A stretch of 64,000 nt of DNA, taken from assembly GCA_037039685.1 (NCBI GenBank), contig JAWNGF010000005.1, positions 2,232,001-2,296,000 on the forward strand, in the 5' to 3' direction. How positions within the stretch are numbered: the stretch's first letter is position 1; each line of letters begins with the position of its first letter. A program made the translations under genes and the position numbers. A model generated the notes under the pieces. It had not been told where the DNA came from. It ran no database searches and saw only the letters and a program-made list of their open reading frames with translations. Shown one piece after another: positions 40,781 through 62,440 of the stretch. The stretch is from Ceratobasidium sp. AG-K (lineage: Eukaryota; Basidiomycota; Agaricomycetes; Cantharellales; Ceratobasidiaceae).

Positions 40781-42852
40781 TCACATATTGCATACGAGAT
40801 TCCCGGTTACATGGTACATCACATCACCGGACCCTTCCATCCTCCCTATTGGCTCGGATTTCCAGTCCCTCGTGCCGCTACCACCTGTCCCATCTATGCA
40901 GCTGCCATTAAAATGGATATTCGTCCCAGATACAGATCTACTTACCCTCTCCTTCACTTCGGCAGCACTTGGACGATCCTGGGGATTGAAGGCCCAGCAA
41001 CCCTCAAGGAGAGACCAGAGCAGATCGGCATCGGGGCTCTGCAAAGGTATATGCACCTCCGGTCGCACGGGGAGGGCCTTGCTAAAGACTTTGGCGAACA
41101 TAATCATATGTTGGCTCATGCCGTCGTAAGGCACCGCTCCGGTAATGACCTCCTGTTCGGCTGATGGGCATTTGATTTATAACGTGAGGTCCTGGTCAGA
41201 CCCACCAAGATTGTCTACCACGAGGTGTACTCAGGCGTTGTAAGGCGCGGCATTCGATGGACCGTTGACTCACCATCCCAAGCGAGTACACATCTGATTC
41301 CATCGTTGCATGACTTTGCCCGGTGAGCATCTCGGGAGCCTGCCGTAAATCGCGTGAGATTTGCTTGTGTTTCATGCCTCACGATACATACCACCCAATT
41401 GAGGGAGATCCCAGCACTACTTGTAGTGTTTGTAAACTGCAGAGTATATTCCTTGAGCGACGCATTGCCAAAATCGGTAAGTTTGGGCGTAAAATCAGAT
41501 GAAAGAAGAATGTTGTCCTGCGAACGAATACGTCAGTACCGCCGAATTGTTGAGCTTGAAGACATCCTGACGCATTTGAGATCGCCATGCACCTACAAAG
41601 TCAATAACGATCTGTTGGGGGTTCATATATGCATTGGTTAGAAACTGCTCGCACCATGCTCTCGCCGTGCATGTATGCGACACCATCCGTGATCTGCACA
41701 CACTGATCACTCCAGCTGAGTATTGGGCCCATCCAGTATTCATGTCTCATACCAGTGTATACCGATCCACTACCTCTTGCCGTATAAGCAAACGCTTCAA
41801 GCTGCCACGCTCCATCCATGGTGATACCATTGCGATCTGATCTCGGTACTGAGCCACCCCGATCAAGCCTAGCACGTTCGGATGGCTGCACTTGGACCAT
41901 ACGTACAGTTCCCGAGCGGCACGCTGTGGCTATGATTAGGCAGGATACTTCGTAGTACAAGCGAGTCTTACCTTTAGCTGCTTCTTCGTGGTTTCGCTCG
42001 AGTCCGTATGCAACCTGAGGCACTTGACCGCCACTCCGGTCCCATCGCGAAAGGCGCCCCTGTACACATCTCCATACCCACCTGATGAGATGGGATACTT
42101 ACTGAAGTTAGATGTATCAAGTTGATCTGTGACGTCTTTGCATCCATGGTCGCCGAGGAGATCTAGCACTTCGGTAGTAGACTACAGGCGGGTTGATAAT
42201 AAATAACGATTGCAAACAGTGTTGATGCCACACTTTCCATCTCGCGGCTGACGATGAGCCTATCAGTGACGTTTGCTTCATCCAATGCGAGAACTGGTTC
42301 GCTATGTGAAGTGACTGTCCTGGCGTCCTCGCCCTAGATATGAACGGGAAGGGGTAAATGAGATGGTCGAGGAAAGTGCTCCATTCAAACCTCACCAAAC
42401 TTCGGTGCGTGAAGGTACCGCTTTTGCCAAGACGGTGATCTGGCGAGTCGGCCTGTAGAGTTAGAGGTGTATTGCCTGACACAACTGGTTGGGCTCCGGA
42501 GTCCTCTACATGTTGGTTATTTTGATCCGGATCCACTTGGTTATGCTTCTGGGGGCCAATTGATTGAGAAATTGTCACCCATTGGGCAAACGAAGCTTAC
42601 ATATTGACTTTGTTGAGATGAGATCAACACCTCGGGCTCGGTGTCAGGGATGAATCTGGTCTTGTCCTATGCCAATGACAGGAATAATGGTATAAGTATA
42701 CAAGTAGCCAATAATACCAAATTGATATTGAGATGGTTGTCGATCATTGCGACGAGGTATGGCGAGTGCCGACCACCGTGAGGCCGTTGTGTAATCAGTG
42801 GGGGACGTGAACGAACCTCGTTCAGAGTCATGGTGGGATTTCTTCGGAGAAA
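40781..42852 (-). CDS. protein kinase (main exons)
   Basis: Exons in order: a 36-nt exon (42817-42852, FLRRNPTMTLNE), a 60-nt exon (42601-42660, ending SSQQSQY), an exon from 42548 (KHNQVDPDQNN...), and several with the catalytic domain. Kinase motifs are complete: glycine loop SSGGYGDVYRG, VAVK lysine, HPNVLGLIG, HGDLK catalytic loop, KLTDFGNAS, APEMLTGQ, ESDVYSLGM and a C-lobe WSLLEGCWAFNPQDRPSA. The domain type is the tyrosine-kinase-like Ser/Thr family expanded in Agaricomycetes; the substrate is unknown. All N-terminal exons are phase 0. The frame continues upstream through the run of candidate 3-nt exons at 42907-44045 and, past a transposon, at 59877-61639. The stop is at 40781. Confidence 0.7.
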
Positions 42853-42906: not shown

Positions 42907-44074
42907 ATCCTATGAGGGACAGAATAAATCCAGGATCAGTAGGGCCAGGAAGTGATCGACACCAGCAGTACTAACCCGCTAGTGGTGTATGAGAGTTGTT
43001 GTCAACTATAAAACGAGCTATCACAGCCAACGAGAACGTACCATCTGTTCGTAAAGCAACATTTGTTTTAGTGTAGCAGTCGTCAGAATAAATGAATCAT
43101 TCCTACGGCCTGAAAGTGACATGTGATTTAGGAGCAATCGACAAGTAGATCAAAATCGAGAGTAACGTGACATACAGCCTGGATGCATGCAGGTCAGAAC
43201 GCAAACCCAAGAGTGTCGAGGAACGGTTGCTTACGTCCTATAGATTTGTGAGTTGAAGTTGAGTCCTAGGAGACGTAAAAGGGATCCAATACATACCTTC
43301 TGTAAGAGATGGGACATGTTAGAGGGATTGCATGAGAAGTGATAATGGCTCGAGAACTCACAGCCTACAAGGAAGTAAGACTTCACTCATATAATAAACA
43401 AGAATATAACGAGCCTCCTGTGAGGAAGCGCGATTGTTAGCACGGGAGAAATAACCGCCAATAAAACCACGAGGTAAGGACTCACATCCTGGGAGGAGAG
43501 AAAAATAGGCTCGTAGAATCAGTGAGTGTGCGGAAGCCGAATCCTTGTGACACTGACAAGCTAATCAGGGAGCAAAATTGGTAGAATTAGCAGTAGGTAG
43601 TTCGTAGTAGCCAGGCTTGACGCACAGTCTGAGCAAAGGATAGGTGATCGAAAGAAAGTTTTTAGTCAGCACCATCGTCCTCGTGCGATCACTGATTCAT
43701 ACGTACATCCTACAGTCATGGTGAAGCGTCAGACGGCAGCGACGACGAGCATCAGGTGCAGAAATGCGCCGCATTAGTCAGCACCATCGTCCTCGTGCGA
43801 TCACTGATTCATACGTACATACTAATCTCGTAGTGAAGCGTCAGACGGCAGCGACGACGAGCATCAGGTGCAGAAATGCGCCGCATTAGTCAGCTCCATC
43901 GTCCTCGTGCGATCACTGATTCATACGTACGGTCTAAAGTCATAGTGAAGCGTCAGACGGCAGCGACGACGAGCATCAGGTGCAGAAATGCGCCGCATTA
44001 GTCAGCTCCATCGTCCTCGTGCGATCACTGATTCATACGTACTCCCTAAAGTCATAGTGAAGCGTCAGACGGCA
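42907..44074 (-). other. run of candidate 3-nt exons of the kinase gene, downstream half
   Basis: On the minus strand a splice acceptor (usually CAG or TAG), three bases, and a donor (usually GTRNGT) recur at short intervals. Plus coordinates and coding triplets: 44043 GGA, 43931 ACC, 43819 TAT, 43707 GAT, 43626 ACT, 43558 CTT, 43486 GAT, 43415 GAG, 43362 GCT, 43297 AAG, 43235 GAC, 43176 GCT, 43107 GCC, 43042 ATG, 42976 CGG, 42907 GAT. Intervening introns are mostly 50-110 nt, many with a CTAAC/CTGAC-like branch motif. The next exon (42817-42852) follows after 54 nt in the same phase. Donors at 43558 (GTCAGT), 43415 (GCTCGT), 43235 (GTAAGC), 43107 (GTAGGA) and 42976 (GTTAGT) are weaker. No transcript evidence is available. 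Confidence 0.6.
43662..44074. repeat. 112-bp tandem repeat array, left part
   Basis: Nearly four units of period exactly 112 bp (triplets at 43707, 43819, 43931, 44043). Each unit is an intron with a 3-nt exon candidate. Units differ mainly in the triplet and the about 14 nt on its acceptor side. The array continues at 59795-60197 beyond the transposon. Confidence 0.9.
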
Positions 44075-44228
44075 CATCAGCAAAAAGGGGACAAAATAAA
44101 TATCGATTTAAATAATATACCTTTCATGTAATTAATTGTAATCTAGTGCCCATCTCAGATGCAGTTTTGAGCACTCTCAATTTGCCATTGTGCTTGCCAT
44201 TGATGTGAATCCACACGTAAGATTGTAG

Positions 44229-44400
44229 CCATTTGAAATCTAACTGGTGTAATCGTAACTGCTTGCAATCCAAAACAGCACACCAAATCACTGGAAATCC
44301 ATCTGTTGATCGTCAAATCACTTCAAATCCACAAGTTGAACAGCAAATCACTCCAAATCCACCAATCCGATTGTCAAATCACCTCGAATTGGTGCTCGGT
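44229..44400. repeat. left subterminal transposase-binding-like repeats
   Basis: AAATCAC followed by T or C recurs at least four times within about 110 bp (CAAATCACTGG, CAAATCACTTC, CAAATCACTCC, CAAATCACCTC). The right end of the element has the same core in reverse. CACTA elements typically carry such transposase-binding arrays near their ends. Confidence 0.6.
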
Positions 44401-44733
44401 AAACCACTCCCAGACACCCAAGAACCCCAAAGTAATTCAACGGCAAGTTAGCTGTGAAGTGAGTCCCAGGACCCGCAAGTAAGCACTCGCGCTCGTTTTG
44501 AATAAGTGCTTGTTTTTTCTTTGTGATTTGGCACACGGGTACACACAAAGTCCGCTAACTGCTTGAATCGACATTTCTCGAACGGTCTAACCAGGTAGTT
44601 TACATGTGTATTACGTGCTCGCGAATCGATACATCCAATAAAATTATGTTTGCGCGCACGGAAGAACTCGTTTTGGGTGGCCCATTTGCCGTGTGCGTAA
44701 TCAAAACGGGTGCACTGATAAAACAGTCAGATG

Positions 44734-45273
44734 TTACGACAGCCAGCCGAGTGAGGCGTCACGACGTACCTGAATCGACGGGGTCGCACAACTCTGGAGG
44801 TGAGTATACGCGGCCGTGCGGACGCGTCGGACGATAGGGCGAGCGAAAGCAGATGAACGAGCCGCAAAACCACCGAAGCAGCCCTCCAAACCACGGGATT
44901 GAACGGACTCGAATGCGCTCAATTGTTCCCAAAAGGAAGTGGACGCCTCGGGCAGGGCGAATGTAAGACGCGTCGCGGGCGAGCCAATGAACCAGCGCGA
45001 GGACCGACGCGTGCGGGTAGAGTTGTGATGCGCCCGACAACGAGATGGGGCTTGGAGTTGGTTAGGCGGGCCGAGGTGGAGCTGGTACAAGAGCAGGCTG
45101 GGGAGGGGGTCGGAGCGAGCGCGAGGACAAGACAACAAGGGTGGTTTAACTCGGGCATCGAGTGGCCGTAGAGGGGCGTAACAACCGGCATCAGTAGCGG
45201 CAAGGAAGCTTGCGATGAATGAGAACCGGAACGCAAGGCGCCAATTTACGGGTGGGGGCAAAACAACCCCCAA
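44734..45273 (-). other. open frame of unknown status inside the transposon
   Basis: A 179-codon minus-strand frame, Ser/Arg-rich, with no domain I recognise. It lies downstream of the transposase gene within the Plavaka-type element. It may be untranslated 3' sequence that happens to be open. Confidence 0.2.
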
Positions 45274-45719
45274 TCTTGACGGCGACTCTCAATGCCTGAT
45301 GGAAACCACACAAAAAAAACCAAAAAACGTGGGCAAATGGAAAAAAATAAAAGCACGGAGAAGATCTTACCTCAGCGTGCGCGATACTGCAGCCAAGAGG
45401 CCTGGAAACTTGACACCGAATGGGACCGACGTAGGCAATCTATTTAATAACGGTCAGAACGAATTCGTATGCGACGTTTTCAATCGTCACACTCGGATAC
45501 TCACTAAATACTAGCGAGGTCGTAAGCAAATTGAGTAGCGATCGAGCTGAGAGAAACAGCGACGGGATTGCCACCTGTAAGCGCACTCGCGACGTGTGGC
45601 CTGCACCGCCAAGAGGAGTCGCGTGAGGTACGCACGTGCCATCGAGGCTTTGTAGGTCGCGCTTGAAAAAACATGTCAAGTCAGCGATACTTGAGCATAG
45701 GAAACAAAAACGGCTAACC

Positions 45720-48700
45720 TCAACGCGCGGCCAGGCGATTCTCCCAGCGCCGCAGGACATTGAAAACGAAATAGGACGAATACCGGCTAAAGTGGAAGAT
45801 ATGGCAGGTTTGCAGCAAGTCTTCGGACGAGGAGATTTCGTGGGTCGGTAAGAGCGAGCTGAACCAAGGAGTAAGATGGCAAGCCATGTGCAGCCGGTAA
45901 AGGGGCATGACAGAGACGTGTCGGACGGAGGGGCTGGTCATGTCGTGGCTGGTCGAGTAAAACCCATCCGCGTGCCCGGGTTCAGCTGAGAACAGTTGGA
46001 AGTGCTCGACGTAGGCGAGCTTTTTGTCGTAAATATGGCAAAGGTGTCGAGGTAACGTGAATATTACTCGTATGCGACCGGCACCGTAGCCTGCAGTTAA
46101 TCGTTAACCGATACTCGCGTGGGGGCAAGAAATGCGAGAGAACTTACGGTGAATACCCTGGTTCTCGGGGTTAGTAACAAACAGCGCCGTGTCGAAGGCG
46201 CCATGATGCGTCAGACGGTTGTACTCGTCGCGTAACTCGGGGGTCACACGGATGGTATCGATCTGTGGGCCATCCTGGGGGAGGAACGGAAGGCGTCCGT
46301 GTTCGAGTTGGCATCGGTGCCAGGCAGCAAAGTTATGTGTTTTGTTGAGGGGAACATGCGTGCGATTGCCGTTGCGACTACGGAGGAACGCTTGCGTGGC
46401 TTCGACAATCGAGGTCGCGTGGTGTATTCTTGCTAAGTAAGCGCCGGTCCGGCTCACGTGGCTCTTGTTGCCTGCAGTCGACACCATGGCTTGGGATGCC
46501 AGATTAACTCCGAATCCCATTCGCGGCGGACTTCAGCACGACCGTTTGTTGCCTCGGTCGACGGCAGTGCCATTGCACGGCCCAGCAATCCGCCTTGTTC
46601 CTTCCCACTTCTTGGTCAGCGAACGACCTCAAACTTGCCTCCGTCCTCGTCGGTCCCGGTGCCCTCGACCTCGTCTGGTAGCCCGCTGGTGCTGTCCCCA
46701 CTCGGTAGAATGCCGATATTGATTAGGTGAGTACGCAACAATACCCAGGCTTCCCGACGCTGAAGATATCTTGCCATTTGGGGCATAGGGTTCACCTTGT
46801 TTGACGCCCGCCAACCGTCCTTGACATACTCGATATGCAATCGTTTGGTTGCTTCGGTATTGAAGTTGTCGGCGGTCCCAAGGCTACGAATCGAATCGGC
46901 AAAATGGCGTAGCATGTGGAGCTTTGGGGTGCCGTTGAAACTGCCTTTACTGAGTACGTCCCGTTTGTTGAAAATCTTCTTGAGGTCGTGGAATCGAGCT
47001 AAGCAAGCTTCCAGGTTGGTTATGTCCTCCTTGGTCATTTGCAACAAGTGCGCCAGCCGCATGAAATCGACAAGATTACGCGAAGCAGCCACAGCGTCCG
47101 GCTTGTCGCATCCCGATGCGACCGCCATGAAAACCTGGGCAAGGGATTTCGCCTCCTTGCCAGTCCACTGGGAGATCTTTGATTTCCCGTTGCTAAAATG
47201 GCGAAGGCCCAGGGCGCGTGGGAGACTGGTCAACCAGCGGTCGAACCTTTTCGGAGTGAGTAGGTTCATCATCCACTTGACCAAATGGTCAAGGAAGACG
47301 CCTTTGTTGACCTGGTGCAGTAGATCAGGCGTAATCGCGCTAGGAATGTCAGCGAACGGCAGTTTGGCCCAGAACGGGCGCACTGGGCAATAGCCCAGTT
47401 TCCAAAGTGCGGGCCCAGGTCGCCCTCGTGCCCCATCCAACGCTTCAAGGAAATCCACCTTGTCCCGCTTGCGATGACACCGATTGCAATTCCCGCGGCC
47501 TTTTAGTGGGCTATGGCATATGGGACATCCACTTTGCCGAACGCAGGAGACGAGGCACTGCTCTGGCCAGTCGCTGACGAATGCCAAGAGGATGGGGAAA
47601 ACGAGGCGGACACCGCCGTTGGCGCACAACATCTCAACGCCGCGCTCACCAGCCTTTTGCAAAGGCTTCAAAAGCCGTTTCATGCATTTGTGGTAGAACT
47701 GCCACCCCGACTTTCCGTTCTCTGAAACCACTGGGATATATCCAAGCAGAATCTGTGCATGTTCAGACGGACGACGGCGAACCGATTTACTGATGTTGCC
47801 GATCGTCAGGTAAACCGGCCACGCAACACGACTACCGCTCATGAGCGACAGCTGGGTCTTATCGGACGACAGTATGACGGTTGCGACCGTAGCCCCGCGC
47901 CCGCCGCCCAGTACGTTCTACCATGAACAATATGAGTGAGTCTACTTCCGCGTCAAACCAGATCGTTTTAAATACTTACCTGTAGTCTCCACCACCGGTT
48001 ACCAGTCCAGACCTCCCCGTAAATCCGTCGAGCGCGTGATCTTGAGGTGTACTGACGGACTGGTGCATACCGCATGTATTTGGCAAAGCGACGCGTCGAC
48101 ATCAACTGACGGATAACGTCAATCGGGTTGCATGTCCAAAAATCAATCCAATCGCCGTTCGGTTGCTTGATCACCAGTTTCTCCCAATCGGGACCGTGTG
48201 GTAGTTTATCGACCTCCTTGAGGAAGTCGTGGCAGCTCTGCCAGGGCAATGAAGTATTCTGCGGACGCGTAAGTATTAATAACGGTCAAAAAATTGTGTG
48301 CTCACATGTTTACGCAGGTACTCCTCGCGTTCCCAATTGCTTGTGTGGATATTCCCCAACCATTCGCCGTGCTCGAAGAGCTTTGTATCTTCCCAGATTG
48401 GGTTGTACAAAGACCTCGGCTGTTTGGGCGGGGTTTCCCATCGTATGACGCCTCCGGCGGTTGGGTCAGGATGCGATTCCTCATGAATCGATTTGTGCGG
48501 TGGGCGACAAGCAGGGGTAGGGGTGACTTTTGGCGGAGGGCCTTGCCAGCACACATTGTCATCGACGTCGTCATCGTTGGTGCTCTCGTCGCCTTCGTCG
48601 TCGCTGTCCCATTCCGAATCCATCGACTCGTCGTCTGGGACAAAATCCGGGTCGCCCTCATCGCCCTCGTTGTAACTAGGAGGCGGGACCAAGTCCTCGT

Positions 48701-49022
48701 TCTCGTCGTGGGTCCAGCCACTCGGGCCAGCACCATCAAAAGCGTCCTTCATTTTGATATCTTTGTCCGCCACGCATTCTTCCTCGGGCAGGGGCTCAAC
48801 AACGACCTTGGGCGAGCGCAAACGTAGCGGGTTTTTTGGCGTGGGATGGGAAGTGGGGTCGCAGGTGTGGTTCCAGTGAGCTACGAGAACGCGCGCATCA
48901 TACTCAGCGAGGTAGTACTTGCAACACTTAGGTACTTGGGAATAATGGTTTCTCAGACCGCGAGTGCTGGGTACTGATTTCTTGCAACTATGGCAGCGGA
49001 ACTTGGACTTGCTGGGGATCAT
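45720..49022 (-). CDS. Plavaka-type transposase
   Basis: Multi-exon gene. The N-terminus (ATG 49022) has a zinc finger (FRCHSCKKSVPSTRGLRNHY), then a long acidic linker. The catalytic region follows: SLYNPIWEDTKLFEHGEWL, WIDFWTCNPIDVIRQL, GGRGATVATVILSSDKTQLS and SGSRVAWPVYLTIGN, then CPICHSPLKGRGNC, ITPDLLHQVNKGVFLDHLVKW, and the C-terminal GTPKLHMLRHFADSIRSLG and FNTEATKRLHIEYVKDGWRA. The last exons (to 45720) read VRHVSVMPLYRLHMACHLTP and SSEDLLQTCHIFHFSRYSSY, the usual tail of these proteins. It would cut and paste the surrounding element. I saw no clear stop inside the core exon (46616-47920), but exon joins near 46520-46616 are unresolved. Confidence 0.8.
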
Positions 49023-49408
49023 GATGGGGTGCGTAGCTGGCGACAATCTCCGAGGGGTGAGTGAGACTTGTCGCAATTTTCGGAGAACTTACCCCTCGGA
49101 TATCAGGGCGGCCGGAAGGACTTCGATCGCAACTGCGATCCCGACGCCGATTTCGACATGTATGTGCCCTAAGTCCAAAAACGGCTGAAGTTGACCCATC
49201 CTGGCTATGTATGCCAAGTTAGTAAGTGTCAGGAACTGACACTCTGAAGGTTATTTGCATTAACGTTTGATTTCCGAAGCTGAAATGAATTGGCTTCGAG
49301 CTCCAAATGCAGCAACAAAGCACCAACTTCTTGCTTCTAATGAGATGGGCCGGGCTTCGGCCCCCACTTTCAGACCTTCATATATGGGCCACGCGAAAAT
49401 TCTCTAAG

Positions 49409-49825
49409 TGTCCCGACTTGGGTAAATTAGGTATATATAAAGGTTAAGGGGTTCGACTTAGACAAGTCTTAGAACCCAAGGAATAGTGATAGTTTAGAGG
49501 ATTTGATTGAGCAAGTCTTAGTGGAGAGGAGGTCAAGCCTTGTCGTTAACCGGCTTGACCTCTGGGTTTATATACATGAGGGAACCGTGCCACGTCATCA
49601 TATATCAGTGTGGGAAAGCCGAGTACAACCGATGATAAGCGAGATAAGAGACATGACTCGACATTCTGGAAGTTCCGGAAGCATCACCAATATCAAATGA
49701 AAAGACAAATACATCACATGATACAAATTTAAGCGCCAGAGGACATTTGTACCAAAAAAGGAAAGTGTTCGGAAAAAAAGATATAAAATCGGAATAAAAT
49801 GTCTGAGCTTAGTCAGCTCATGACA
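49409..49825 (-). repeat. 3' LTR of the Gypsy element
   Basis: 417 bp, same length as its partner. Contains a TATA-like element and the self-priming motif discussed for the 5' LTR. Ends TG/CA on both strands. Confidence 0.93.
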
Positions 49826-49835
49826 TTACCCCCTC

Positions 49836-50429
49836 CTAAGGGCCTGGCGCGGTGGGGTGGAGTTTGTGAAATTTATCAACCAGTTCAGGAGCGTTCTTGA
49901 GATCTTCCTTTGACTGCCAAGAGTTGTCTGCATGAGAGTATCCCTTCCACTTAATGTAATAGTGGAGTTGACAGCGGATTTTCTTGGAATTAAGGACCTC
50001 TTTGACTTGCCATTCTTCCTCTCCATCTTGTGTGACAATGGGGGGTGGTTGAGCGGGTTTGCGGCCATGGGGATCAGAGTGGAATTTCTTGAGCAGCATG
50101 ACGTGGAAGACAGGATGAACTTTCATTGATTTTGGTAATTCCAGTCTAAAGGCATGAGTTCCTACTTTTTCCATTACTTTGTAAGGGCCTAAAACTTTGT
50201 GGGAGAGTTTTACTGAGGGTCTGTCTGTGGAAATGTTCTGGTGATTAAGCCAGACTTTATCCCCCGGGTTTATCTCTTCTGGTTCTTTGGCTCTTTTATC
50301 AAAGTAGTATTTATAGGACTGATTTGCTAGGATGAGGGCAGCTTTGACTTCGTCGTATCCTTTCAACAGGAATTCCGCATGGGCATCAGCTTCAGGAACA
50401 GTATAGTCTGATTCTTCCCCGATGTTCAT
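49836..50429 (-). CDS. Gypsy pol C-terminal part with chromodomain
   Basis: 197 residues continuing the integrase C-terminus: GDKVWLNHQNI, LSHKVLGPYKVMEKVG, LPKSMKVHPVFHVMLLKKF. Then comes a chromodomain (HYYIKWKGYSHADNSWQ) that in related elements guides integration to modified histones. It starts 4 nt inside the end of the main pol frame in a different phase (ATGA overlap). In relatives this is one polyprotein, so a 1-nt loss at the junction is likely. Confidence 0.85.
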   Translation of the reverse strand: MNIGEESDYTVPEADAHAEFLLKGYDEVKAALILANQSYKYYFDKRAKEPEEINPGDKVWLNHQNISTDRPSVKLSHKVLGPYKVMEKVGTHAFRLELPKSMKVHPVFHVMLLKKFHSDPHGRKPAQPPPIVTQDGEEEWQVKEVLNSKKIRCQLHYYIKWKGYSHADNSWQSKEDLKNAPELVDKFHKLHPTAPGP

Positions 50430-53233: not shown

Positions 53234-53268
53234 ATTACTAGCTAGTATATCACCGAGTACTTGGCTCC

Positions 53269-54621
53269 TTAATAAGCCTCGGTGACGTCTTTTCCCGATT
53301 CAATGTCTGAAGAGATTTCTTCAATCTGGGCTTCAAACCCTGACGCTGTGTTCTTGGAAGGACAGACCCTTGCTGAGTGTCCCTTACCGCCGCAGGTGAA
53401 GCAGATCATTGGTCCTTTTCCTTTTCCATCAAGATCCATTGCATTAGGGTCTTTAGCAGGAGTGGAGGGTTTGGGTGTTTGGATGGTAGGAACGTTGAGG
53501 TTACTGGTTCGGGTGTCTTTTTGAATTGCTCCAAAAGGGACATTTCCTTTTGTCCCATCATCCCAGGAGATCTGTGGAACTGGACGGCCCTTGGCGTTTT
53601 GGGTGATGCTTGAGATTTTGCCGTATTGCACCCCCCCTGTAGGTTTTGACATAAAGACTTGATCGTTTACATTGAATCTTTGACCTAGTGAGGCGTTTGG
53701 AGTACTTTGGGTTGTCTTGGAAGTGCTTTGTTTCGAAGTGGTGGTTTGTGGGCTTTGCAACTTCTTTGGTGCGTTAATAGCATTCATTGTGGAGTCAATT
53801 TCCAGGGCTCTTTCGCGAACTTGGTTGAATGTCCTTGTCACTTCGTGGGGTTTAAAGTTCTGTGACACCATGGCCATCTTGATTTCATCCTTAAGACCAT
53901 CATAGAAATCATCACGAAGTACTCGATCAGTGTACCCAAGTACCAATGAATAAGTGACGAAGTCTCGTAGATAATCTTGGACAGAGTTCTTCTGGATCAA
54001 TTTCTTGTATAATTGTCTATATCGGTCGATCTTGTGAACATTGCCAAACCTAGCTTGCATTTCGTTCCAGAATTCATCCATATCGTGTAGCCAATTTGTT
54101 GCTCCCCTTCTTGCTGTGTCTACATCAATTCCAGGTTGCATCCATACATAGGCAGGCCCCTTGCAATAACCCATGATATAAGTGATTTTTTGTTCTGTGG
54201 TTGCTTGTGGCGACGTATGATTTATGTACAAGGTACATTGCGACTTAAACTCGTCAAATTTATCTACATCTCCAGAAAATTCTTCTGGGGGATGCATTTT
54301 GAGTTTGTATCCTGGGGTGGTTGTTGACGCGTTGGTGGAGGGTGTTGCCCCTAGGTTTGCAAGTGACTGAGACACTGCATTCATTAATTGGTGAAGGGGT
54401 GCAATTTGTGCAGTTTGATTTTGAATTGCGTGGATATCTGCAGTGTTATTGTCGATCCCCTGTTCTAGGGTAGAGGTGATACCATTTAAGGCATTAATAT
54501 GACCGTTAATTTTTCGCACTTCGTCTATTAAGGCATTGATTGCATGTGCAACTACCTTGGGTCCGGACGTCGCTGAGATTTGGGTAAATCCCCCTTGACT
54601 TGGTGATGGGGCTCTTGACAT
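53269..54621 (-). CDS. Gypsy gag with CCHC zinc knuckle
   Basis: About 450 residues from MSRAPSPSQGG. The capsid-like core has FSGDVDKFDEFKSQC and a region with FWNEMQARFG. The nucleocapsid part near the C-terminus has one knuckle, C-x2-C-x4-H-x4-C (CFTCGGKGHSARVC). An upstream in-frame ATG at 54678 overlaps the preceding small ORF by 32 nt, so the start is uncertain. Forms the virus-like particle shell. Confidence 0.88.
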   Translation of the reverse strand: MSRAPSPSQGGFTQISATSGPKVVAHAINALIDEVRKINGHINALNGITSTLEQGIDNNTADIHAIQNQTAQIAPLHQLMNAVSQSLANLGATPSTNASTTTPGYKLKMHPPEEFSGDVDKFDEFKSQCTLYINHTSPQATTEQKITYIMGYCKGPAYVWMQPGIDVDTARRGATNWLHDMDEFWNEMQARFGNVHKIDRYRQLYKKLIQKNSVQDYLRDFVTYSLVLGYTDRVLRDDFYDGLKDEIKMAMVSQNFKPHEVTRTFNQVRERALEIDSTMNAINAPKKLQSPQTTTSKQSTSKTTQSTPNASLGQRFNVNDQVFMSKPTGGVQYGKISSITQNAKGRPVPQISWDDGTKGNVPFGAIQKDTRTSNLNVPTIQTPKPSTPAKDPNAMDLDGKGKGPMICFTCGGKGHSARVCPSKNTASGFEAQIEEISSDIESGKDVTEAY

Positions 54622-54646
54622 ATTGGAGTGGGGAAAACAGGTAGAT

Positions 54647-54898
54647 TTATTGGGATCCCAGACCGTACAAAATATCACGGATTCTTCTTCGAACCCTTCT
54701 GTCTTTAATGATGCGCAAACTTCTCAAAAATATCAATTCAAGATTTTCGTCTTCCAAGAACAACGCGTTGATTACTCCTAGTTCGTCGTACTGTTTGTAT
54801 ATGTAGTTACGATGAATGTCTTCAATAAAGAGTTTTAGGGACTCTAGTCTAAGTTGTTCCCTGTGTTGTTCCTGTGTGAGTCGAGGTCTTGGTCCCAC
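54647..54898 (-). CDS. Gypsy accessory small ORF
   Basis: 83 residues, highly charged and predicted helical, ending YGLGSQ. It overlaps the coiled-coil ORF upstream by 55 nt and abuts gag, each in a different frame. No known domain. Tight packing suggests it is translated, or that ORFs were split from one gag precursor. Confidence 0.5.
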   Translation of the reverse strand: MGPRPRLTQEQHREQLRLESLKLFIEDIHRNYIYKQYDELGVINALFLEDENLELIFLRSLRIIKDRRVRRRIRDILYGLGSQ

Positions 54899-55458
54899 TG
54901 AAAAGGGTTGGGTGCGATAGTATTAAGGTGATTTAGAAGGCGGTAATCCTGATTAATAGGAATACGCACTTCTGCTGCTTGATGACAGTATTTGCCCTTG
55001 ATTTTGTCTTTAAGGGTTTCGATAGTATGCCACTGACGTTTGTTGTTGCTGATGAGATTTTTGACCTTTCGAGTGTGTTTCTCTTGGATTTTTATAAGTT
55101 GATCGCAGTTTTCGATCAGGACACAGGTTTGTTCTTGCAATCGCTCAACTTCGATATTAGTGTCCGCTAGATTTATGCTTTGGACACGATCTTGATCGGC
55201 TTGTTGCTTGTTTGTATTGTCGAGGTTAATTTCGATGAACTCAAGCCTTGAATGGAGGGATTGATAATCGGCTTCGAGTTGATTGTGGTTTTCGTCGTTT
55301 CTGGTACGTTCGACCCTTAAATCCTCTGCTTGTTCAACTTGATCTTCTTCTAGCACTTCAATTCGACTGTTTAATTCGTCGACTTTGGTGTCTAGATCAA
55401 GTACGAAGTCCTTTAGTCTAAAGACTGCTTCGCAGAGGCTAAAAAATGCGGGGAACAC
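54844..55458 (-). CDS. Gypsy accessory coiled-coil ORF
   Basis: 204 residues with heptad-like leucine/isoleucine spacing through most of its length (DLDTKVDELNSRIEVLEEDQ and onward). It is the first ORF after the 5' LTR. No enzyme motif is visible. It could assist particle assembly or RNA binding; that is a guess from shape only. Confidence 0.5.
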   Translation of the reverse strand: MFPAFFSLCEAVFRLKDFVLDLDTKVDELNSRIEVLEEDQVEQAEDLRVERTRNDENHNQLEADYQSLHSRLEFIEINLDNTNKQQADQDRVQSINLADTNIEVERLQEQTCVLIENCDQLIKIQEKHTRKVKNLISNNKRQWHTIETLKDKIKGKYCHQAAEVRIPINQDYRLLNHLNTIAPNPFQWDQDLDSHRNNTGNNLD

Positions 55459-55936
55459 TTTTAAGGTTAATTAGTTAGTTACTAATTAGTTCCTTTTTAG
55501 TGCGTACTGATGGAAACAACAGGTTGATGGGGTTCTTGATGGATGAGAGTGTTAACTTGGGTGGTGCTCTGACCACTTTCCAGTTTCACTTGAGAGGATC
55601 TGGCTTCCTCGAGATGTTGATTTGGATGTGAAGGGTGCTAGACGCTAAGCTTTTGCTTTATATACTCCTTATCTGATCTTATCAGTTATCAACAGCCTTG
55701 GGCGGGCGTGATAGCGACAGTGTATAACAGAGTAAGGGTGTATTTAGCTGACTAAAGCCACTATGACCCGAAAGAGGATAACGATTGGGTTCACTGACAG
55801 CATATAGCGACGTGGGACTACTGGTCTATATCAAGTATAGCTCTTCGTCCGTTGTACTATGCCCGTTTTCCCGTGTACATTCTATCTACTTGGTGGAAAA
55901 AAGCAGGAGCTTTGAGGCTGATGCTTTTTTTTTTAA

Positions 55937-55948
55937 AAGGCTTGACCT
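55937..55948 (-). promoter_or_regulatory. predicted self-priming primer-binding site of the Gypsy element
   Basis: Two bases inside the 5' LTR border, the minus strand reads AGGTCAAGCCTT. Its reverse complement AAGGCTTGACCT occurs in the LTR at 56083-56072, about 25-30 nt after a TATA-like sequence (about 56109-56116), where transcription should start. This is the Tf1 arrangement, in which the mRNA 5' end primes reverse transcription. No match to a tRNA 3' end (TGG start) is present. Confidence 0.6.
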
Positions 55949-55950
55949 AA

Positions 55951-56367
55951 TGTCCCGACTTGGGTAAATTAGGTATATATAAAGGTTAAGGGGTTCGACT
56001 TAGACAAGTCTTAGAACCCAAGGAATAGTGATAGTTTAGAGGATTTGATTGAGCAAGTCTTAGTGGAGAGGAGGTCAAGCCTTGTCGTTAACCGGCTTGA
56101 CCTCTGGGTTTATATACATGAGGGAACCGTGCCACGTCATCATATATCAGTGTGGGAAAGCCGAGTACAACCAATGATAAGCAAGATAAGAGACATGACT
56201 TGACATTCTGGAAGTTCCGGAAGCATCACCAATATCAAATGAAAAGACAAATACATCACATGATACAAATTTAAGCGCCAGAGGACATTTGTGCCAAAAA
56301 AGGAAAGTGTTCGGAAAAAAAGATATAAAATCGGAATAAAATGTCTGAGCTTAGTCAGCTCATGACA
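55951..56367 (-). repeat. 5' LTR of the Gypsy element
   Basis: 417 bp. Contains the TATA-like box, the predicted RNA start motif and a short inverted repeat around it (AGGTCAAGCC and GGCTTGACCT). Three of the four differences from the other LTR are CG to CA or TG changes. Confidence 0.93.
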
Positions 56368-56631
56368 CTAAGGTAGAGCGCCCCCCTTGTTCGTTCTTCT
56401 CTCTCCATCACTCGAACCTCTACGATCTCCACTTTGTCAACTCATTTTTTCATCGCATGCTGCCTCCGAGCAACTTGCTCGATGGAAGAAACCCAGGCTG
56501 TGAGCCCCACCGGCCGCCCGCTTTGCTCACCTAAGATCCCCGCGAACGCGTTTGACTACGGTACATCTGGCGCCAACTAATTTGGATGGAATGCTGACAT
56601 CGCTTGAAGTGAGCAAACACCAGCCTACGAG

Positions 56632-59140
56632 AATGGCACGTCTATCTCAGGCCAGCAACACTGCTGTTGTTGCTGATGGTAAGTGCCAGCTCATCGGCAT
56701 TTAGTTCTCGCATTGCTAACTTGATCTATGTAGCCCGCCATCTGTCCCCCGCAAGAAGCCTGCCCCGCGCCCTCGAGAGGACTCTGACGCCGTGCCATCC
56801 ACCAAGTCGGAGTCGGAGAGGGCCAAGAAGCGACAGAAAAAGGGCAAAGACAGAGTCGATGACCCCGAGAATATACTCGGTAAGTTAAACACGAACAACA
56901 AACGCTCCAGTTACTGACATATTCACTCAGATCTGCCGTACGATCAACTTGTCTCTGACGAGGATCGCACGCGTTGGTTGTTGACAATGCTTCGCGCTCG
57001 CAACTCTCGCGACTTCTCTGAGGAAGGCTTGGACCTCAACAACCTTGAGTTCTTGTGGCATGGCCGACCGAGTAAAACGGTACGTTGACACTTTGCATCA
57101 TTCTTTTGGTCACTAATTTCTCATGCATTTGCAGCCACCTCCCAAGCGCAACGCATCAGCGCCGCTTGAGAGGACGGACTCTTTCACGATCGTCCCGGGG
57201 GGCAAGCTCCCTTCGTTCAAGGACAAAATCAAACCCCAAGGTACGCTCTGGGTTGATTTACCTTATACATGTAGCTTACTCCTCTTCGTTTGCTAGCACC
57301 CGAGCCGTTGCAGGGCCCCCAGCCAAGTGCTGGACGCCATTCGCCTTGGATTGGCGCTGTCAGTCCTGTGCCTGGCCCCGCAATGGCAGCTTCATTGTCA
57401 CAGGCACGCGTCACTATGCGTCTACGCCTTGCCCATTCCATTTCATCTCGCCCAACACCATCAGAGGATCCACCCAAAGCCAATCTACCTCGAAATTTGC
57501 CGAACCCCGAGGCAGAAGCACCCAATGTCGGCCCAACCCCCCCTGGCTCTCCAGTTCAGCCTTGCGTTGCGGTTGAGCCAGTTGGCCGTGAGCCTTCAGG
57601 CTCACCACTTCGCGCCTCACCCAAAGTCGTTAGTCGTCACTCAACCGCCCCACCATCGCCTCAGCATGTTCCGTTTTCACCCGACCGCATTCAACCTCAC
57701 CAGGACGATCAACTATCCTCTCCGTCACCGCCACCTTGGACTCATGCTGCTCGCAAGCCCCGCCAACCCGTGCCTGTGGCCCAAGGGGATACGTCTGATG
57801 ACGATCTCCCCAATCCTCAAGATGCAAGGATGTTGGACCGAGAGCAACCAGAGGTGCTGCCAAAACGGAAGGGCCAGCACCCGCCTGCGAGGCAATCCCC
57901 ACCTCCCCCTGTTCCGGACAATGGAGATGATGAGCAGTCAGATTTTGAAGGTACATACTAACTTATACGGTTCAAGCTTGCCGCTAAGTTGATCTTTATT
58001 AGATGTTCCCATCAACGTCCCTATTGCCGGCCTTCTCACCATGAGACAACAGTCCCAACAGCGTTGGTTTGGCTGTGCAATCCTGATCGTCTTGCCAAGC
58101 ACTGTGTTCTACTTGCGATTACTACAAACCCTTTCGCCAACTGCACGCCTGTCATTGTCGACGATGACAAAGACGGCGTCCCTATTGCCAATGGCGTTGA
58201 ATTCGACCTGATTGTCACCAGGGAGTGGGCGGCCGTCAACCACGAGTTACGACCTGGCCAGCGCCCCTTCAAGCTCCACAAAGAATACCGCTTCAACGTG
58301 AGTACATTCAATTAGGATAAATCACTTACTAACCATGCCCAAATAGGTGAAGCAGGTTTATACCCAGCTACGCAATGCCATCAAAACCGATGCTATAGGG
58401 TTTGTCAAGACTTACTATGACCTGGGCCCTGATCATTCTCCAAAGGATGTCTGAGAGACTGTTCAGAAACTACTGGACGATAATTTTCACTCAAGCGTAA
58501 GTCCTTGTGTTTTGTCTAGCTGATATCAAAGGCTGATGGTATGAAAGACTTTGACTCTGGGCTGCAATGAGTTCAAGCACCAGATTATAGCCAATACCAT
58601 TGCGCAGTCTCACTTCTCCATGCCGGGAAAATCAATCGGTTACCGGTTTGCCAGGCATTTCAAACCTATGCCCCGCCCCACGATTGCCCTGCACTGCACA
58701 ATAGTAAGTCCTGTGTAGACCCTCGTTCCATGCTAACTCCCTTTTTTAAATTCATTTCCTCATCACAACGTTCAGCACTGGCCAGCAAGTCCAGAGTGCC
58801 AGTCTTGCTGCAGAGAATCAACGTCACTGGTTCAAGTATTACCTGGACCAGCTTGACTTGATGGCTGACCCGGATAACAACCCTACACGCATCTCGAACA
58901 TCCAGCGGAGGTTATTCAAGCAGGTTTAGTAGGTGAACATCTTGTGCGTGGAAGCAGGCTAACCAGCCACTCAAACAGCCAAGTCCAACCTGTCCGTCAG
59001 GGCCTTCCCAAGCCTCGCCGTCGGGCTTATGAACCTGACAGCGAGGAGGAAGCTATGTCGGACATTGACTTGTCTGATCAAGGTGAGTACAAGTGTCAAC
59101 TCACCATGGTGGTCACTGAGAGATGTGTTGTTTAGATTAG
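56632..59140 (+). pseudogene. decayed cargo gene of the Plavaka-type element
   Basis: Plus-strand exons with typical introns give a basic, proline- and serine-rich N-terminal half (PSVPRKKPAPRPRED, PENIL, LPYDQLVSDEDRTRWLL, SRDFSEEGLDLNNLEFLW). A more ordered C-terminal half follows (VIVDDDKDGVPIANGVEFDL, YRFN, KQVYTQLRNAIKTD, RHWFKYYLDQLDLMADPDNN). No known domain is recognised. An in-frame TGA at 58452-58454 interrupts KDV and ETVQKLL, and the exon 1 to exon 2 join is out of frame, so this copy is probably dead. It is divergent to the transposase and inside the same terminal repeats, hence an element gene. Confidence 0.5.
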
Positions 59141-59519
59141 TTATAACTGTTCTCTCGTGATAGATGTTGTGTAATTAATTCTGGACTTTGTACATTACCC
59201 AACTGAGTGTTTCTTGGACATTTTCGCATATTTTCTTTCCATGTGTATCCCTTAGTACTTGTTTCTTCCTAGGAGTTATACATGACTCACATGTGCTTTC
59301 ATTCATTCTTGTCATATCTGTTATCCTTTTGACCGTGTCACCTGGTGACAGTGACATCCAAATGCAGTTTTGAAGACAAATATCATGCTATGAACCTCTC
59401 ATCTAACATTCAGATGAATATTGGAAGACTGCACTGGCCATAGCATGCAAAACTGTGCAAGTATTGTGGGAACAAAAAAAACTCGACTGAGCCTATGGCT
59501 CAATCATCCTAACAAGTAT

Positions 59520-59770
59520 TAGAGGTGATTGAATACTTAGGACTTTAGATATGAAGTTGGATTGTTGGACTAAGAGTGATTTGAGGATGGGGTATTGGAT
59601 TTAAAGTGATTTGAGGGTGGGTAGCTAGATTCTGAGTGATTTTGAGGCCACATTGACGATTTCAGGTGATTTCAAGCACTATCAATGTGTCCTGGGTGGA
59701 TCCCAAGTACTCTCAGATTTAGACCTTGCTCTTTTGGATTTCGTGATTTAAAGTGATTTAAATCACTTAT
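59520..59770. repeat. right subterminal transposase-binding-like repeats
   Basis: GTGATT with a short AT- or GA-rich tail occurs about six times (AGGTGATTGAA, GAGTGATTTGAGG, AAGTGATTTGAGG, GAGTGATTTTGAGG, AGGTGATTTCAAG, AAGTGATTTAAAT), the reverse of the left-end motif. Confidence 0.6.
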
Positions 59771-59794
59771 TATCTAAGTACCTTTTTGCTGATG

Positions 59795-60197
59795 CAGCGA
59801 TGACGAGCATCAGGTGCAGAAATGCGCCGCATTAGTCAGCACCATTGTCCTCGTGCGATCACTGATTCATACGTACATACTAATCTCGTAGTGAAGCGTC
59901 AGACGGCAGCGACGACGAGCATCAGGTGCAGAAATGCGCCGCATTAGTCAGCTCCATCGTCCTCGTGCGATCACTGATTCATACGTACATACTAATCTTG
60001 TAGTGAAGCGTCAGACGGCAGCGACGACGAGCATCAGGTGCAGAAATGCGCCGCATTAGTCAGCTCCATCGTCCTCATGCAATCACTGATTCATACGTAC
60101 ATACTAATCTCGTAGTGAAGCGTCAGACGGCAGCGACGACGAGCATCAGGTGCAGAAATGCGCCGCATTAGTCAGCTCCATCGTCCTCGTGCGATCA
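59795..60197. repeat. 112-bp tandem repeat array, right part
   Basis: Three full triplet positions (59877, 59989, 60101), all TAT on the coding strand, spaced exactly 112 bp. Same unit as 43662-44074. The array was split by the transposon. Confidence 0.9.
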
Positions 60198-61639
60198 TAA
60201 ACCCACACTCGCTTTCTACAAGCCAAGAGTCGAGTTTCATTGTTTGCTACCACGTGTTGACATCACGGCTACTACTAGCCAACGTACTTTCTGCCAGCAA
60301 CAGAAAGATCTCAGTCTCATGCCGCGTGGTTCTTCTCAGTCCTACCCACAATCTATTATTTCACCAATGAGCTCAATTCATATCTCAGCCCCATCAGGCA
60401 GCCGCATTCTACTCGCCGTCTTCGTCCAATTTATATCTCCTGTTAGTCGAGCTTCCGCATCTACATCTGTTGTCTACTTACATACTGGAGTGCCGATATC
60501 ATCAATCAAATACGAGCCGTGGGCCTTTTTAGTGTATGCTTTTCGGTTTCTGAAGCGGCACTCACTTTCTGTCATTGCCATGTTTCGATACCGCAAGTAA
60601 GGACTGTCAGCATCTCGCCACCCGCCAACAAAGCGCAGTGACCCACCCTGTTTTTATCTATCGTCTAAGAGGTCGCCCGTTGCCTGCTTGTTAGCACGCA
60701 TCATTCATGCTTTCTGGTGAATGAACCCACCCACTGAGGTCGTTTGAATGCCGAGTCAGCTAATAGCAATATCGTGTCAACACAATGTCACCCACAGTCT
60801 AGAACAATGGCAATGCAACCACATAAGTGAATTACTTCTGGCAGCTCCATATCCACCACGTGCACTCACCCACTTGATTGCGTGGAAGCAAATGAGGTTC
60901 GACGCGACAACAATCAAATTCCATCATTGTTATACTGATTAGCACAATCTCCGCTCTACCATGTAACTCCTACATACAGTCTGATGTTATCGAACGCCGC
61001 AGGAGGGCAGCGAGTACGCGCACAAGAAATCCATGCACTGATCAGCAGTCCTGTGGCCCGTAAGACATCACTTACATTCTGGTAACAGTACAGTGTGCAA
61101 GAAACGGGTTCGGTCGTTGGCCAAAGCGAATGCGATCCTAGTCAGCTCTAGTCCACCCAGCGGTCGAGGTACGCACCCTCTGTCATAGTCAAGTTCACGC
61201 ATCCGAGGCCAGATCAATCGATGTCATTCGCTCGTCAGAGTCATGCCTCGGTCGGCACGAAGGACACGTACCCCCTGCATGCGTGTGACCGTTCGAGGCA
61301 GGCCCAATGGTTCATCGACAGTCCCAAGGATGGTCAGCAGCATGCTCGGTTGAGGGACGGAACCGGCACACCTTGTAGTCGCAAGTAAAACAGCAGTCGG
61401 TTTCCAGTCATGTTCACATTGCCGTGTCGGCGTTCGCAAGGTCAGCGTCGTGCTTGGTGATTATGCCGACGCGGTGCACCCACCACCTAGGGTAACGGCG
61501 GATCATTGAGCCACAGGAATCACCGGAAAGGAGCAGCAACGAAGGGATGCACTCACATGATCTTTGCCTTCAACCTGACAGGCGTGCAGGAAATGATTCA
61601 TCAACCCTTGTCATGGCTATACGACGTCTAGCGCACCCA
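59877..61639 (-). other. run of candidate 3-nt exons of the kinase gene, upstream half
   Basis: Acceptor / triplet / donor units on the minus strand at 61637 TGG, 61484 GTG, 61272 GGG, 61177 AGG, 61076 AAT, 60978 ACT, 60870 TGG, 60796 ACT, 60731 TGG, 60566 AAA, 60482 TAT, 60350 ATT, 60288 AAA, 60209 CGA, 60101 TAT, 59989 TAT and 59877 TAT (plus-strand lower coordinate given). Two 18-nt exons of the same style fit between them: 61557-61574 (VEGKDH) and 60647-60664 (TIDKNR). Weak sites are 61637 (GTGCGC donor), 60870 (AAG acceptor) and 60209 (AAG, GTGTGG). The first exon of the gene was not found; it should lie between 61640 and about 62400. Confidence 0.6.
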
Positions 61640-62440
61640 CTGCGAAATCGCATCTCAGCAAACACCATAGACATATCAGACTTCAACGCACAATTATTTC
61701 AATCTCCATTGTCAGTCGGTTATTCGATTCGATTGATCTTGGTACTCGTCGGCCTTTGCTCGCAGGTCGTTGTCAGAGGGCAAGATCGTTCATCCCACGT
61801 GCAGATCTGTGCACGAACCGGCATAGGGTGCCTATCACGTAACATCACCAAAAGCAGAAGGCCAAGTTGTGCTAGAAATGTTCGCGACAATTCGCGTCAC
61901 CAAGTGAGATGTCATCGGGGTAGTTCAATCAATTACTATGAGCAGGCTCCGCTACACGTTCAACACCCTCGAGTCCGTTGACACAAGCATTGTTCTGGTG
62001 GCCAATCCACGCTCGCTCCACCCATGTGCGCCGACCAATGGCTGCACCTTCTCCCATGGCACCGTGCCGCCGGCCTACTGCCTCCTTTCGCTTTTTTGTC
62101 CCGAGTCTGGTTGACAGCCTATTGGGGCGCTCATCCAAGGATCATCCTCTCTTGTCAATCCCGATCGTCGCAAGGGTAAGGAACACTTCGATGTGGCGCT
62201 CCGGATCGGTTTCGGTCCCGCCATGAATGTCCGTCAATCAAATGGTCCAAGACGATGACGACCATCATGTTGTCAGATGATATTCAAATAGCCATCGCCG
62301 TGCCTTCTTGCCTTGTCAATTACTTTGTGACGGCTCCCCGGGAAATAGATTCGCGAATATGGATGTGTGAAGGCGTGTAATTAAAAGGACGGGGTTCATG
62401 CATCGAGCGCTGCAAGTGGACTGATTCATCGAGTTGAAAG
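61640..62440. other. probable 5' region of the kinase gene and intergenic DNA
   Basis: It should contain the start codon of the minus-strand kinase gene. The frame at 61929-62138 (begins MDERPNRLS, basic) is a possible first exon, but I could not find a convincing donor. Nothing else is recognised. Confidence 0.3.

Follow-up and report, generated by a model that had tools for sequence, protein, structure and literature searches.

What does a run of splice acceptors and donors standing three bases apart, repeated dozens of times in front of a protein kinase, encode? The question is raised by the window, a stretch of 64,000 nucleotides from the Ceratobasidium sp. AG-K genome (contig C5, positions 2232001-2296000), which carries sites of the form YAG-NNN-GTRNGT on the strand of a kinase gene. 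Judged by sequence comparison, the sites exist, lie on one strand, are kept as splice sites among the copies of the gene, and leave one predicted frame from the ATG to the kinase. We consider it probable (about 86%) that they belong to a family of genes whose products carry an N-terminal domain in front of a protein kinase, most of that domain being spread over single-codon exons, which would be joined by stepwise splicing and would include a hypervariable peptide. The genome comprises 53.6 Mb in 17 contigs, and every genomic comparison reported here was made within it.

The gene in the window

The spliced model runs on the minus strand from ATGGAGATTGAAATAATT at 61709 to the stop at 40846 and has no internal stop. 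Initially, it consisted of 48 exons, 32 of which were of one codon; comparison with the other copies of the gene added E14b (AAG-ACG-GCGAGT) and F1b (TAG-CTT-GTCAGT), bringing the one-codon exons to 34 of 50. All introns are in phase 0 and, except for the one that bears a transposon, are 48 to 209 nt long (mostly 50 to 130 nt). The ends of exons K1 and K4 were set by P0001, a database protein described below. In the predicted protein, Pfam recognizes PF00069 (151.6 bits; cut-off, 31.7) and PF07714 (136.6 bits; cut-off, 23.1), both over residues 193 to 445. The segments GGYGDVY, HGDLK, and DFG, which we take to be kinase motifs (the glycine-rich loop and others), are all in frame, as they are in P0001. 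The features are given below; exons with no basis in brackets rest on the comparison of six copies.

61692..61709, minus: E1, first coding exon, 18 nt, MEIEII, donor GTGCGT (copies, model, and the pattern at 10 loci)
61637..61639, minus: E2, TGG (W) (W in six copies and also in L035, L036, and L038/39)
61557..61574, minus: E3, 18 nt, VEGKDH (six-copy comparison and window model)
61484..61486, minus: E4, GTG (V; S in the five other copies)
61272..61274, minus: E5, GGG (G)
61177..61179, minus: E6, AGG (R)
61076..61078, minus: E7, AAT (N)
60978..60980, minus: E8, ACT (T)
60870..60872, minus: E9, TGG (W), AAG acceptor (six copies and subfamilies)
60796..60798, minus: E10, ACT (T)
60731..60733, minus: E11, TGG (W)
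60647..60664, minus: E12, 18 nt, TIDKNR, one codon in L035, L036, and L038/39 (copies and subfamilies)
60566..60568, minus: E13, AAA (K)
60482..60484, minus: E14, TAT (Y)
60417..60419, minus: E14b, ACG (T), AAG acceptor, GC donor (copy comparison)
60350..60352, minus: E15, ATT (I)
60288..60290, minus: E16, AAA (K)
60213..60215, minus: E17, AAA (K), GC donor
59795..60197, minus: upstream part of the 112-bp minisatellite, with TAT exons at 60103-60101, 59991-59989, and 59879-59877 (YYY)
44075..59794, no strand: transposon of 15,720 bp inside the minisatellite, with 14-bp inverted ends CATCAGCAAAAAGG and TG at both sides
43662..44074, minus: downstream part of the minisatellite, with GGA 44045-44043, ACC 43933-43931, TAT 43821-43819, and GAT 43709-43707 (GTYD)
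43626..43628, minus: F1, ACT (T)
43558..43560, minus: F1b, CTT (L), donor GTCAGT (copy comparison)
43486..43488, minus: F2, GAT (D)
43415..43417, minus: F3, GAG (E), donor GCTCGT
43362..43364, minus: F4, GCT (A)
43297..43299, minus: F5, AAG (K)
43235..43237, minus: F6, GAC (D)
43176..43178, minus: F7, GCT (A)
43107..43109, minus: F8, GCC (A)
43042..43044, minus: F9, ATG (M)
42976..42978, minus: F10, CGG (R)
42907..42909, minus: F11, GAT (D)
42817..42852, minus: F12, 36 nt, FLRRNPTMTLNE, AAG acceptor (six copies and the alignment of database protein P0017)
42601..42666, minus: F13, 66 nt, DKTRFIPDTEPEVLISSQQSQY
42396..42548, minus: F14, linker exon of 153 nt
42238..42333, minus: K1, linker exon (end from P0001, ...SREM|STTEV)
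41972..42181, minus: K2, kinase exon with the glycine-rich loop GGYGDVY (window model and Pfam)
41753..41923, minus: K3, kinase exon (window model and P0001)
41655..41702, minus: K4, kinase exon, starting 9 nt further up according to P0001 (CVQITDG)
41572..41592, minus: K5, kinase exon of 21 nt, VHGDLKC (window model and P0001)
41392..41517, minus: K6, kinase exon with DFG (window model and P0001)
41274..41339, minus: K7, kinase exon, APEML... (window model and P0001)
41206..41214, minus: K8, 9-nt microexon TIL within the kinase, TML in P0001 (window model and P0001)
40846..41152, minus: K9 (41152-40946) and the last exon (40893-40846) through the stop (window model and P0001)

Three donors of the gene are of the GC type (E14b, E17, and F3), and the junction in P0001 after ...SREM would imply that the intron at 42237-42182 starts with GA, not GT. 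A further candidate 3-nt exon at 61371 was rejected, as its triplet has no donor behind it. The same place holds a conserved CTACAAG|GTG in the long intron between E4 and E5, which may be a genuine recursive splice site of the zero-nucleotide type.

A preliminary description of this DNA had reported 33 candidate 3-nt exons in front of a kinase. The sites are indeed there, on one strand and in a gene that is in phase 0 throughout and ends in a protein kinase, and that they are many holds, although their number in the gene is 34 rather than 33. We likewise count 25 strict YAG-NNN-GTRNGT sites on the minus strand (between 61489 and 42901), and all 34 triplets are sense codons, as had been said of the original set. 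They are not strictly consecutive, since two 18-nt exons are interspersed, and the 18-nt exons number three instead of two, the first one (61709-61692, MEIEII) carrying the ATG. The exon that follows the 36-nt exon measures 66 nt and not 60 nt. The spliced model also keeps the frame that had been seen to run on into the kinase in phase 0. The insertion set aside in the earlier count is the transposon at 59794-44075 (15,720 bp).

Density and strand of the sites

Counting both strands, the window contains 28 strict sites, whereas 100 dinucleotide shuffles averaged 6.7 and never exceeded 16. The count was extended to the regions around six copies of the gene, with the limits of the gene spans set by us. 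Within these spans, 220 strict sites are found on the sense strand and none on the antisense strand in 41.6 kb (5.3/kb); outside them, there are 26 in 404.9 kb of strand (0.064/kb). The latter figure, one per 15.6 kb, is close to the chance rate of one per about 16,000 positions given in the preliminary description.

Conservation of the splice sites among six copies

Searching the genome at the DNA level for the repeat and its two flanking constant blocks revealed six copies: the window gene, C5b/c (a second copy on C5, split by insertions), C7a, C7b, C3a, and C3b. The last two lie in segments that are about 98.7% identical and represent either a segmental duplication or two haplotypes. All six copies contain the same 27 constant one-codon exons (25 recognized at first plus E14b and F1b), and with the units of the array between the constant blocks each copy has 33 to 64 one-codon exons.

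For column counts, four lineages were compared (window, C7a, C7b, and C3b), with C3a and C5b/c omitted as near-duplicates. Across the 25 constant exons, none of the 100 columns of AG and GT/GC bases shows variation, nor does any of the 25 columns of the G at position +5, whereas 493 of 2018 intron columns (24%) and 21 of 75 triplet columns (28%) vary. For the 18 exons that were chosen from the strict pattern in the window alone, none of the 72 core columns varies, which would occur by chance with a probability of about 2e-9 at the intron rate; 16 of the 54 columns of their triplets do vary. As controls within the introns of the four lineages, other AG pairs are conserved in 33 of 61 cases and other GT pairs in 56 of 96.

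Related kinase subfamilies and conservation of codons

Two further kinase subfamilies, one formed by L036 and L038/39 and the other by L035, have exons in nearly the same order as the window family. The stretch upstream of kinase L036 (C7) holds 37 strict sites on the gene strand and 1 on the antisense strand, and that upstream of L035 (C6) holds 32 and 1. L038/39 (C7), which was found by the pattern of the first exon, has 28 sites, 1 antisense site, and an inserted element in its array; it is placed with L036 because the two are 83% identical over 2 kb. L037, another near kinase, has no array and 1 strict site upstream. Outside the kinase exon, little DNA is shared between subfamilies: C7a matches L036 over a single 145-base stretch at 68% (within the array), and no DNA shared with L035 was found at an E value below 1e-3.

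The order of the exons is nevertheless retained. Each family opens with an 18-nt exon (MEIEII, MEIKIV, or MEIELI), followed by a lone W and another 18-nt exon. Single codons then lead to T-W-T-W or E-W-T-W, then to Y, the array, and a conserved end block. This block reads T-L-D-E-A-K-N-A-A-V-Q-D in C7a, T-P-D-E-A-K-N-D-A-V-Q-D in L036, and L-D-Q-A-K-D-R-A-V-K-H in L035 (the first codon being ambiguous and the last exon assigned by eye), and it is followed by a 36-nt exon that begins FLRRNP..., FLRNNP..., or FLEKNK... across C7a, L036, and L035. The GC donor of E14b is common to the window family and L035. Exon lengths differ at two places: E12 measures 18 nt in the window family but a single codon in the others, and E5 is 9 nt in L035. 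The first-exon pattern MEI[EK][IL][IV], with up to 2 mismatches, occurs at 10 loci in the genome (0 for the reversed pattern) and is preserved there with synonymous changes. Nine of these loci lead into one-codon sites, and the tenth is known as a pattern match only. At 3 mismatches, 5 extra loci appeared against 4 in the control, and these were dropped.

Exons were paired between subfamilies by order at 26 positions, leaving out E5 and E12, whose lengths differ. The last twelve sites of L036 were taken in order with none skipped, and for L035 loose candidates that were off in order or spacing were excluded. C7a and L036 are identical at 16 of the 26 amino acids, a number reached by 0 of 20,000 shuffles, at a synonymous difference (pS) of 0.64 and a nonsynonymous difference (pN) of 0.28. 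Identity is 14/25 between C7a and L035 (pS, 0.75; pN, 0.30), 12/25 between L036 and L035 (pS, 0.69; pN, 0.35), and 14/26 and 15/26 between L036 and C3b and C7b, respectively; over five subfamily comparisons, pN/pS ranges from 0.40 to 0.63. Pooling one codon for each array codon type of the window family with the constant codons and the L035 and L036 arrays gives 129 codons and no stop, for which the chance is about 0.002 if codons are independent, which the constant ones are not. The candidates excluded from L035 include two stop triplets (TGA at 659423 and TAA at 659544) that overlap strict sites by four bases, and three stop-bearing candidates within the inserted element of L038/39 were set aside.

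From these codon comparisons, selection seems to act on the amino acids in the one-codon exons. Since the amino acids are conserved over the bases and no accepted triplet is a stop, the triplets behave as translated single-codon exons. The core statement of the preliminary description, that many in-frame 3-nt exons precede a kinase, is thus strongly supported by conservation at nine loci and by amino acid-level conservation across subfamilies. Random loss of the sites in relatives, which it had named as evidence to the contrary, was looked for among the copies of this one genome, and none was seen. Upstream of the sites, the branch-point-like motif CTRAY is clearly overrepresented in C7a (34 of 44) and in L035 (11 of 32, equaled in 7 of 500 shuffles).

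The codon array

Between the two constant blocks lies a minisatellite with units of 109 to 112 bp, each made of one intron and one codon exon. Intact units number 7 in the window, 6 in C5b/c, 26 in C7a, 37 in C7b, 24 in C3a, and 17 in C3b, for a total of 117. Read in order, the array of C7b encodes GYYYRLTRYVYRDYGGYYYYGVVGYRGDRVVDYGVVD. C3a and C3b are seven units apart (24 and 17), and several of their codons differ.

The codons of the array are more variable than almost the whole of the surrounding intron. In the arrays of C7a, C3a, and C3b, the triplet accounts for the three most variable columns of the unit. The triplet columns rank 1 to 3 of 109 in L036 (16 units), 1, 2, and 5 in L038/39 (10 units), 1, 2, and 6 in C7b, and 1, 2, and 4 in all 118 pooled units. 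Within single arrays, triplet diversity is 0.50 to 0.71, compared with a mean per column of 0.05 to 0.07. Many array codons are two or three bases apart (TAT, CGA, AGC, and GTT), some are associated with particular 3' intron haplotypes, and the AG is kept in 117 of 118 units (motif search allowing two changes).

Transcript-like proteins and database searches

A protein search gave 1134 matches, and among the best 120, which were listed, the named ones are almost all from Rhizoctonia solani or Ceratobasidium. P0001 (411 amino acids, from a 1539-base ENA contig) matches 88% of the window model at 80% identity; because many introns cross that stretch, it must presumably derive from spliced RNA. 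P0017 (421 amino acids, from a 1707-base contig) starts M-N-H-FLDGHPEVTLSE and aligns without gaps over F9-F10-F11-F12 (E value of 3e-7, against the best 120 of the 1134 matches). This start is compatible with a transcript that holds three consecutive one-codon exons.

Five N-terminal peptides gave Pfam matches that were all below the cut-off (AP2, E value of 0.02; NADH_oxidored, 0.05; haemocyanin, 0.15), and a PDB sequence search with the domain returned nothing significant (best E value, 1.1). The PB1- or ubiquitin-like look of the domain is an impression, which neither search supports. By eye, the N terminus MEIEIIWVEG is unlike a secretion signal.

Insertions and damage at the loci

The arrays of the window, C5b/c (L018-L021), and L038/39 all carry insertions, so that three loci have apparently separate ones. 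The window transposon has 30-bp repeats near its ends (44280-44382 and 59573-59647) and contains a 7-kb stretch with 93.7% identity to another next to the C5c array; the ends of this stretch match over about 420 bp, as in long-terminal-repeat (LTR) elements. The element in L038/39 is also LTR-like, with the same sequence at both edges. Between the C5b/c and window copies, 65 of 90 substitutions in three partly overlapping alignments are C to T or G to A, resembling repeat-induced point mutation.

The kinase half of C7b (L012) comes after a piece resembling a kinase end, and its last matched piece has 73% DNA identity, against 90% upstream, with the frame kept by eye. Many kinase matches on contigs C3, C6, C12, and others form same-contig pairs with equal scores, perhaps through segmental duplication or the joining of haplotypes. 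C3b and C7b look in frame by eye in the alignments, and the window locus may itself be a damaged copy within a family that is still live.

Proposed mechanism

An exon of 3 nt leaves no room for spliceosomes at both sides simultaneously, and short fungal introns are recognized across the intron. Because spliceosomes could not flank such an exon together, we infer that the introns would be removed one by one. Each splice would append one codon to the 5' exon, which would then end in NNN and expose the next GTRNGT donor, amounting to recursive splicing that leaves one codon behind per step. Since the exons are multiples of three and the introns are in phase 0, skipping, loss, or gain of units keeps the frame. 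Gain, loss, and shuffling of units would thus alter the peptide by whole residues, as would skipping within a cell, and the addition or omission of residues by splicing agrees with the exon anatomy predicted here.

In the product, the constant one-codon blocks (W, ...TWTW..., and T-L/P-D-E-A-K-N-x-A-V-Q-D into FLRRNP) would flank the residues of the 109- to 112-bp minisatellite, and, judging from its conserved ends, the domain may be small and folded, with a variable insertion.

Weighing the explanations

A number of observations weigh against translated one-codon exons as proposed here. Seven of the 25 constant exons are off the strict pattern and were selected after the copies had been viewed, and some sites have weak signals (AAG acceptors, GC donors, GTCAGT, and GCTCGT). 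Of six other AG-NNN-GT/GC places in introns, a tiny sample, four are fully conserved where two are expected. Exons of different subfamilies were paired by us according to their order, and CTRAY is not clearly enriched in L036 (9 of 37; 48 of 500 shuffles) or L038/39 (4 of 28; 305 of 500). In the array, the third triplet column drops to 6th place in C7b, 5th in L038/39, and 4th in the pool. P0001 starts at a methionine within F12 and does not show the upstream exons, being either truncated or an isoform, and of the M-N-H of P0017 only H matches C3b and only M matches the window. Copies are damaged, with insertions in the window, C5b/c, and L038/39 and 1-nt length differences in exons of C7a and C3a. 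The peptide encoded by the microexons was also not found in a collection of 5.8 billion proteins, among proteins of about 239 to 761 and about 53 to 168 amino acids; the search of the longer class was blind to short matches, as P0001 and P0017 are unlisted there, and the peptide is probably missing from the proteins reached because gene finders and read aligners rarely permit 3-nt exons.

Chance, or a motif-rich minisatellite devoid of splicing function, is hardly conceivable as the source of the sites. Some of them do belong to a tandem repeat, yet 27 constant sites lie outside it in each of the six copies, the gene spans hold no antisense site, the core columns of the strictly chosen sites vary in 0 of 72 cases against 24% in introns, and the same exons recur in subfamilies whose introns hardly align; a chance origin was therefore rejected on the shuffles, the strand bias, and the conservation of core bases. 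The preliminary description also raised the idea that the sites are ratchet points. Its stepwise removal of the intron probably holds, but the triplets do not seem to be discarded, given the conserved amino acids, and pure ratchet points were rejected on that ground. Elaborated, the idea is that the triplets are stepping stones by which a long 5' intron is removed piecewise, the protein starting at the methionine of F12 (MTLNE...). This is where P0001, with its 80% identity over 88% of the model, starts exactly; the upstream residues occur in no protein found by the database searches; and sites 3 nt apart are unusable together, so that stepwise use is needed in any case. Discarded triplets, however, need not conserve amino acids, and yet 16 of 26 are identical at a synonymous difference of 0.64, the first exon MEI[EK][IL][IV] is kept with synonymous changes at 10 loci, 129 codons include no stop, and the residues of P0017 are in register with F9 to F11, all of which makes stepping stones very improbable.

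It is somewhat unlikely, though compatible with translated one-codon exons, that the gene is a mixed one, producing both a full form with the microexons and a shorter one beginning at F12, with the array serving mainly as a switch (more units, less full-length kinase). The coexistence of conserved coding triplets and a P0001 that starts at F12 speaks for such a gene, as does the loss of yield that dozens of serial splicing steps must bring; alone, it gives no account of array codons that vary more than the nearby introns. The skipping of all sites as one long intron, also suggested earlier, may likewise exist as an isoform, with P0001 starting at a methionine downstream of the sites. If the domain is real, the diversity of its array codons could still be old drift spread by unequal crossing-over and have no role in recognition. 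Insertions inside the array at three of the examined loci and the linkage of some unit haplotypes to codons are in keeping with this, but drift should affect intron and triplet equally, whereas triplet diversity within single arrays is 0.50 to 0.71 against column means of 0.05 to 0.07, the AG is kept in 117 of 118 units, and stops are absent. We consider drift alone to be improbable.

We therefore favor a translated domain of single-codon exons upstream of the kinase. Its likeliest role, and the weakest step of the argument, is speculative: a hypervariable peptide that might recognize self and non-self or a partner upstream of a kinase switch. It is also possible, though less likely than not, that the self-shuffling minisatellite of one-codon exons acts as a changeable "peptide register" in front of the kinase. 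Unit turnover would rewrite it from strain to strain and copy to copy, and the choice of in-frame exons would do so within a cell, so that the splicing of single residues would furnish a recognition repertoire.

If confirmed, the family would mark a new extreme for the spliceosome, in which a domain grows by one residue at each of 33 to 64 splicing events per gene, and would open the steric limits, order, and fidelity of splicing to direct testing. It would also represent a new route to a hypervariable protein, in which whole residues are mutated, duplicated, or skipped with no risk to the frame. The absence of the peptide from the proteins reached by the searches would point to a blind spot of genome annotation, and the ten first-exon matches, nine of which lead into one-codon sites, suggest an overlooked signaling family in Rhizoctonia-like fungi.

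Comparison with known systems

Fungal NLR-type receptors have tandem repeats under diversifying selection in genes for non-self recognition, and these are protein repeats within exons. Here, in contrast, the repeat unit would be an intron plus a one-codon exon, and the effector would be a kinase.

Microexons in other eukaryotes are typically 3 to 15 nt (PMC13149111), and one functional microexon is reported for Trichoderma Xlr2 (PMC11121469). In the Rhizoctonia solani AG8 genome, RNA-seq reads were aligned by TopHat with the microexon search on (PMC4014442). Among the literature matches listed, as covered by titles and abstract openings and with most subscription journals and preprints outside, neither runs of one-codon exons nor their minisatellite is described. 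As far as could be seen, the parts of the present system (microexons, micro-exon genes, and recursive splicing) are known and the writing of a variable protein by these means is not.

Whereas the microexons described in these papers are isolated, the genes reported here are predicted to have dozens each, plus a variable tandem array. With recursive splicing at zero-nucleotide ratchet points (PMC13149111), they share an acceptor beside a donor and hence a presumed stepwise removal; such ratchet points, however, leave nothing behind and lie in very long introns, whereas here three bases stand between the sites, one codon would be kept, and the introns are mostly of 50 to 130 nt. The micro-exon genes (MEGs) of Schistosoma have short exons of 3 to 81 bp and introns of up to 5 kbp, encode secreted proteins, and are linked to protein variation by alternative splicing (PMC10526429). 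In the window gene, about 34 of 50 exons are predicted to be of 3 nt, but the kinase part lies in ordinary exons. Unlike the MEGs, each gene of this family would combine a kinase and short introns with 33 to 64 exons that are exactly one codon long, some of them as units of a minisatellite.

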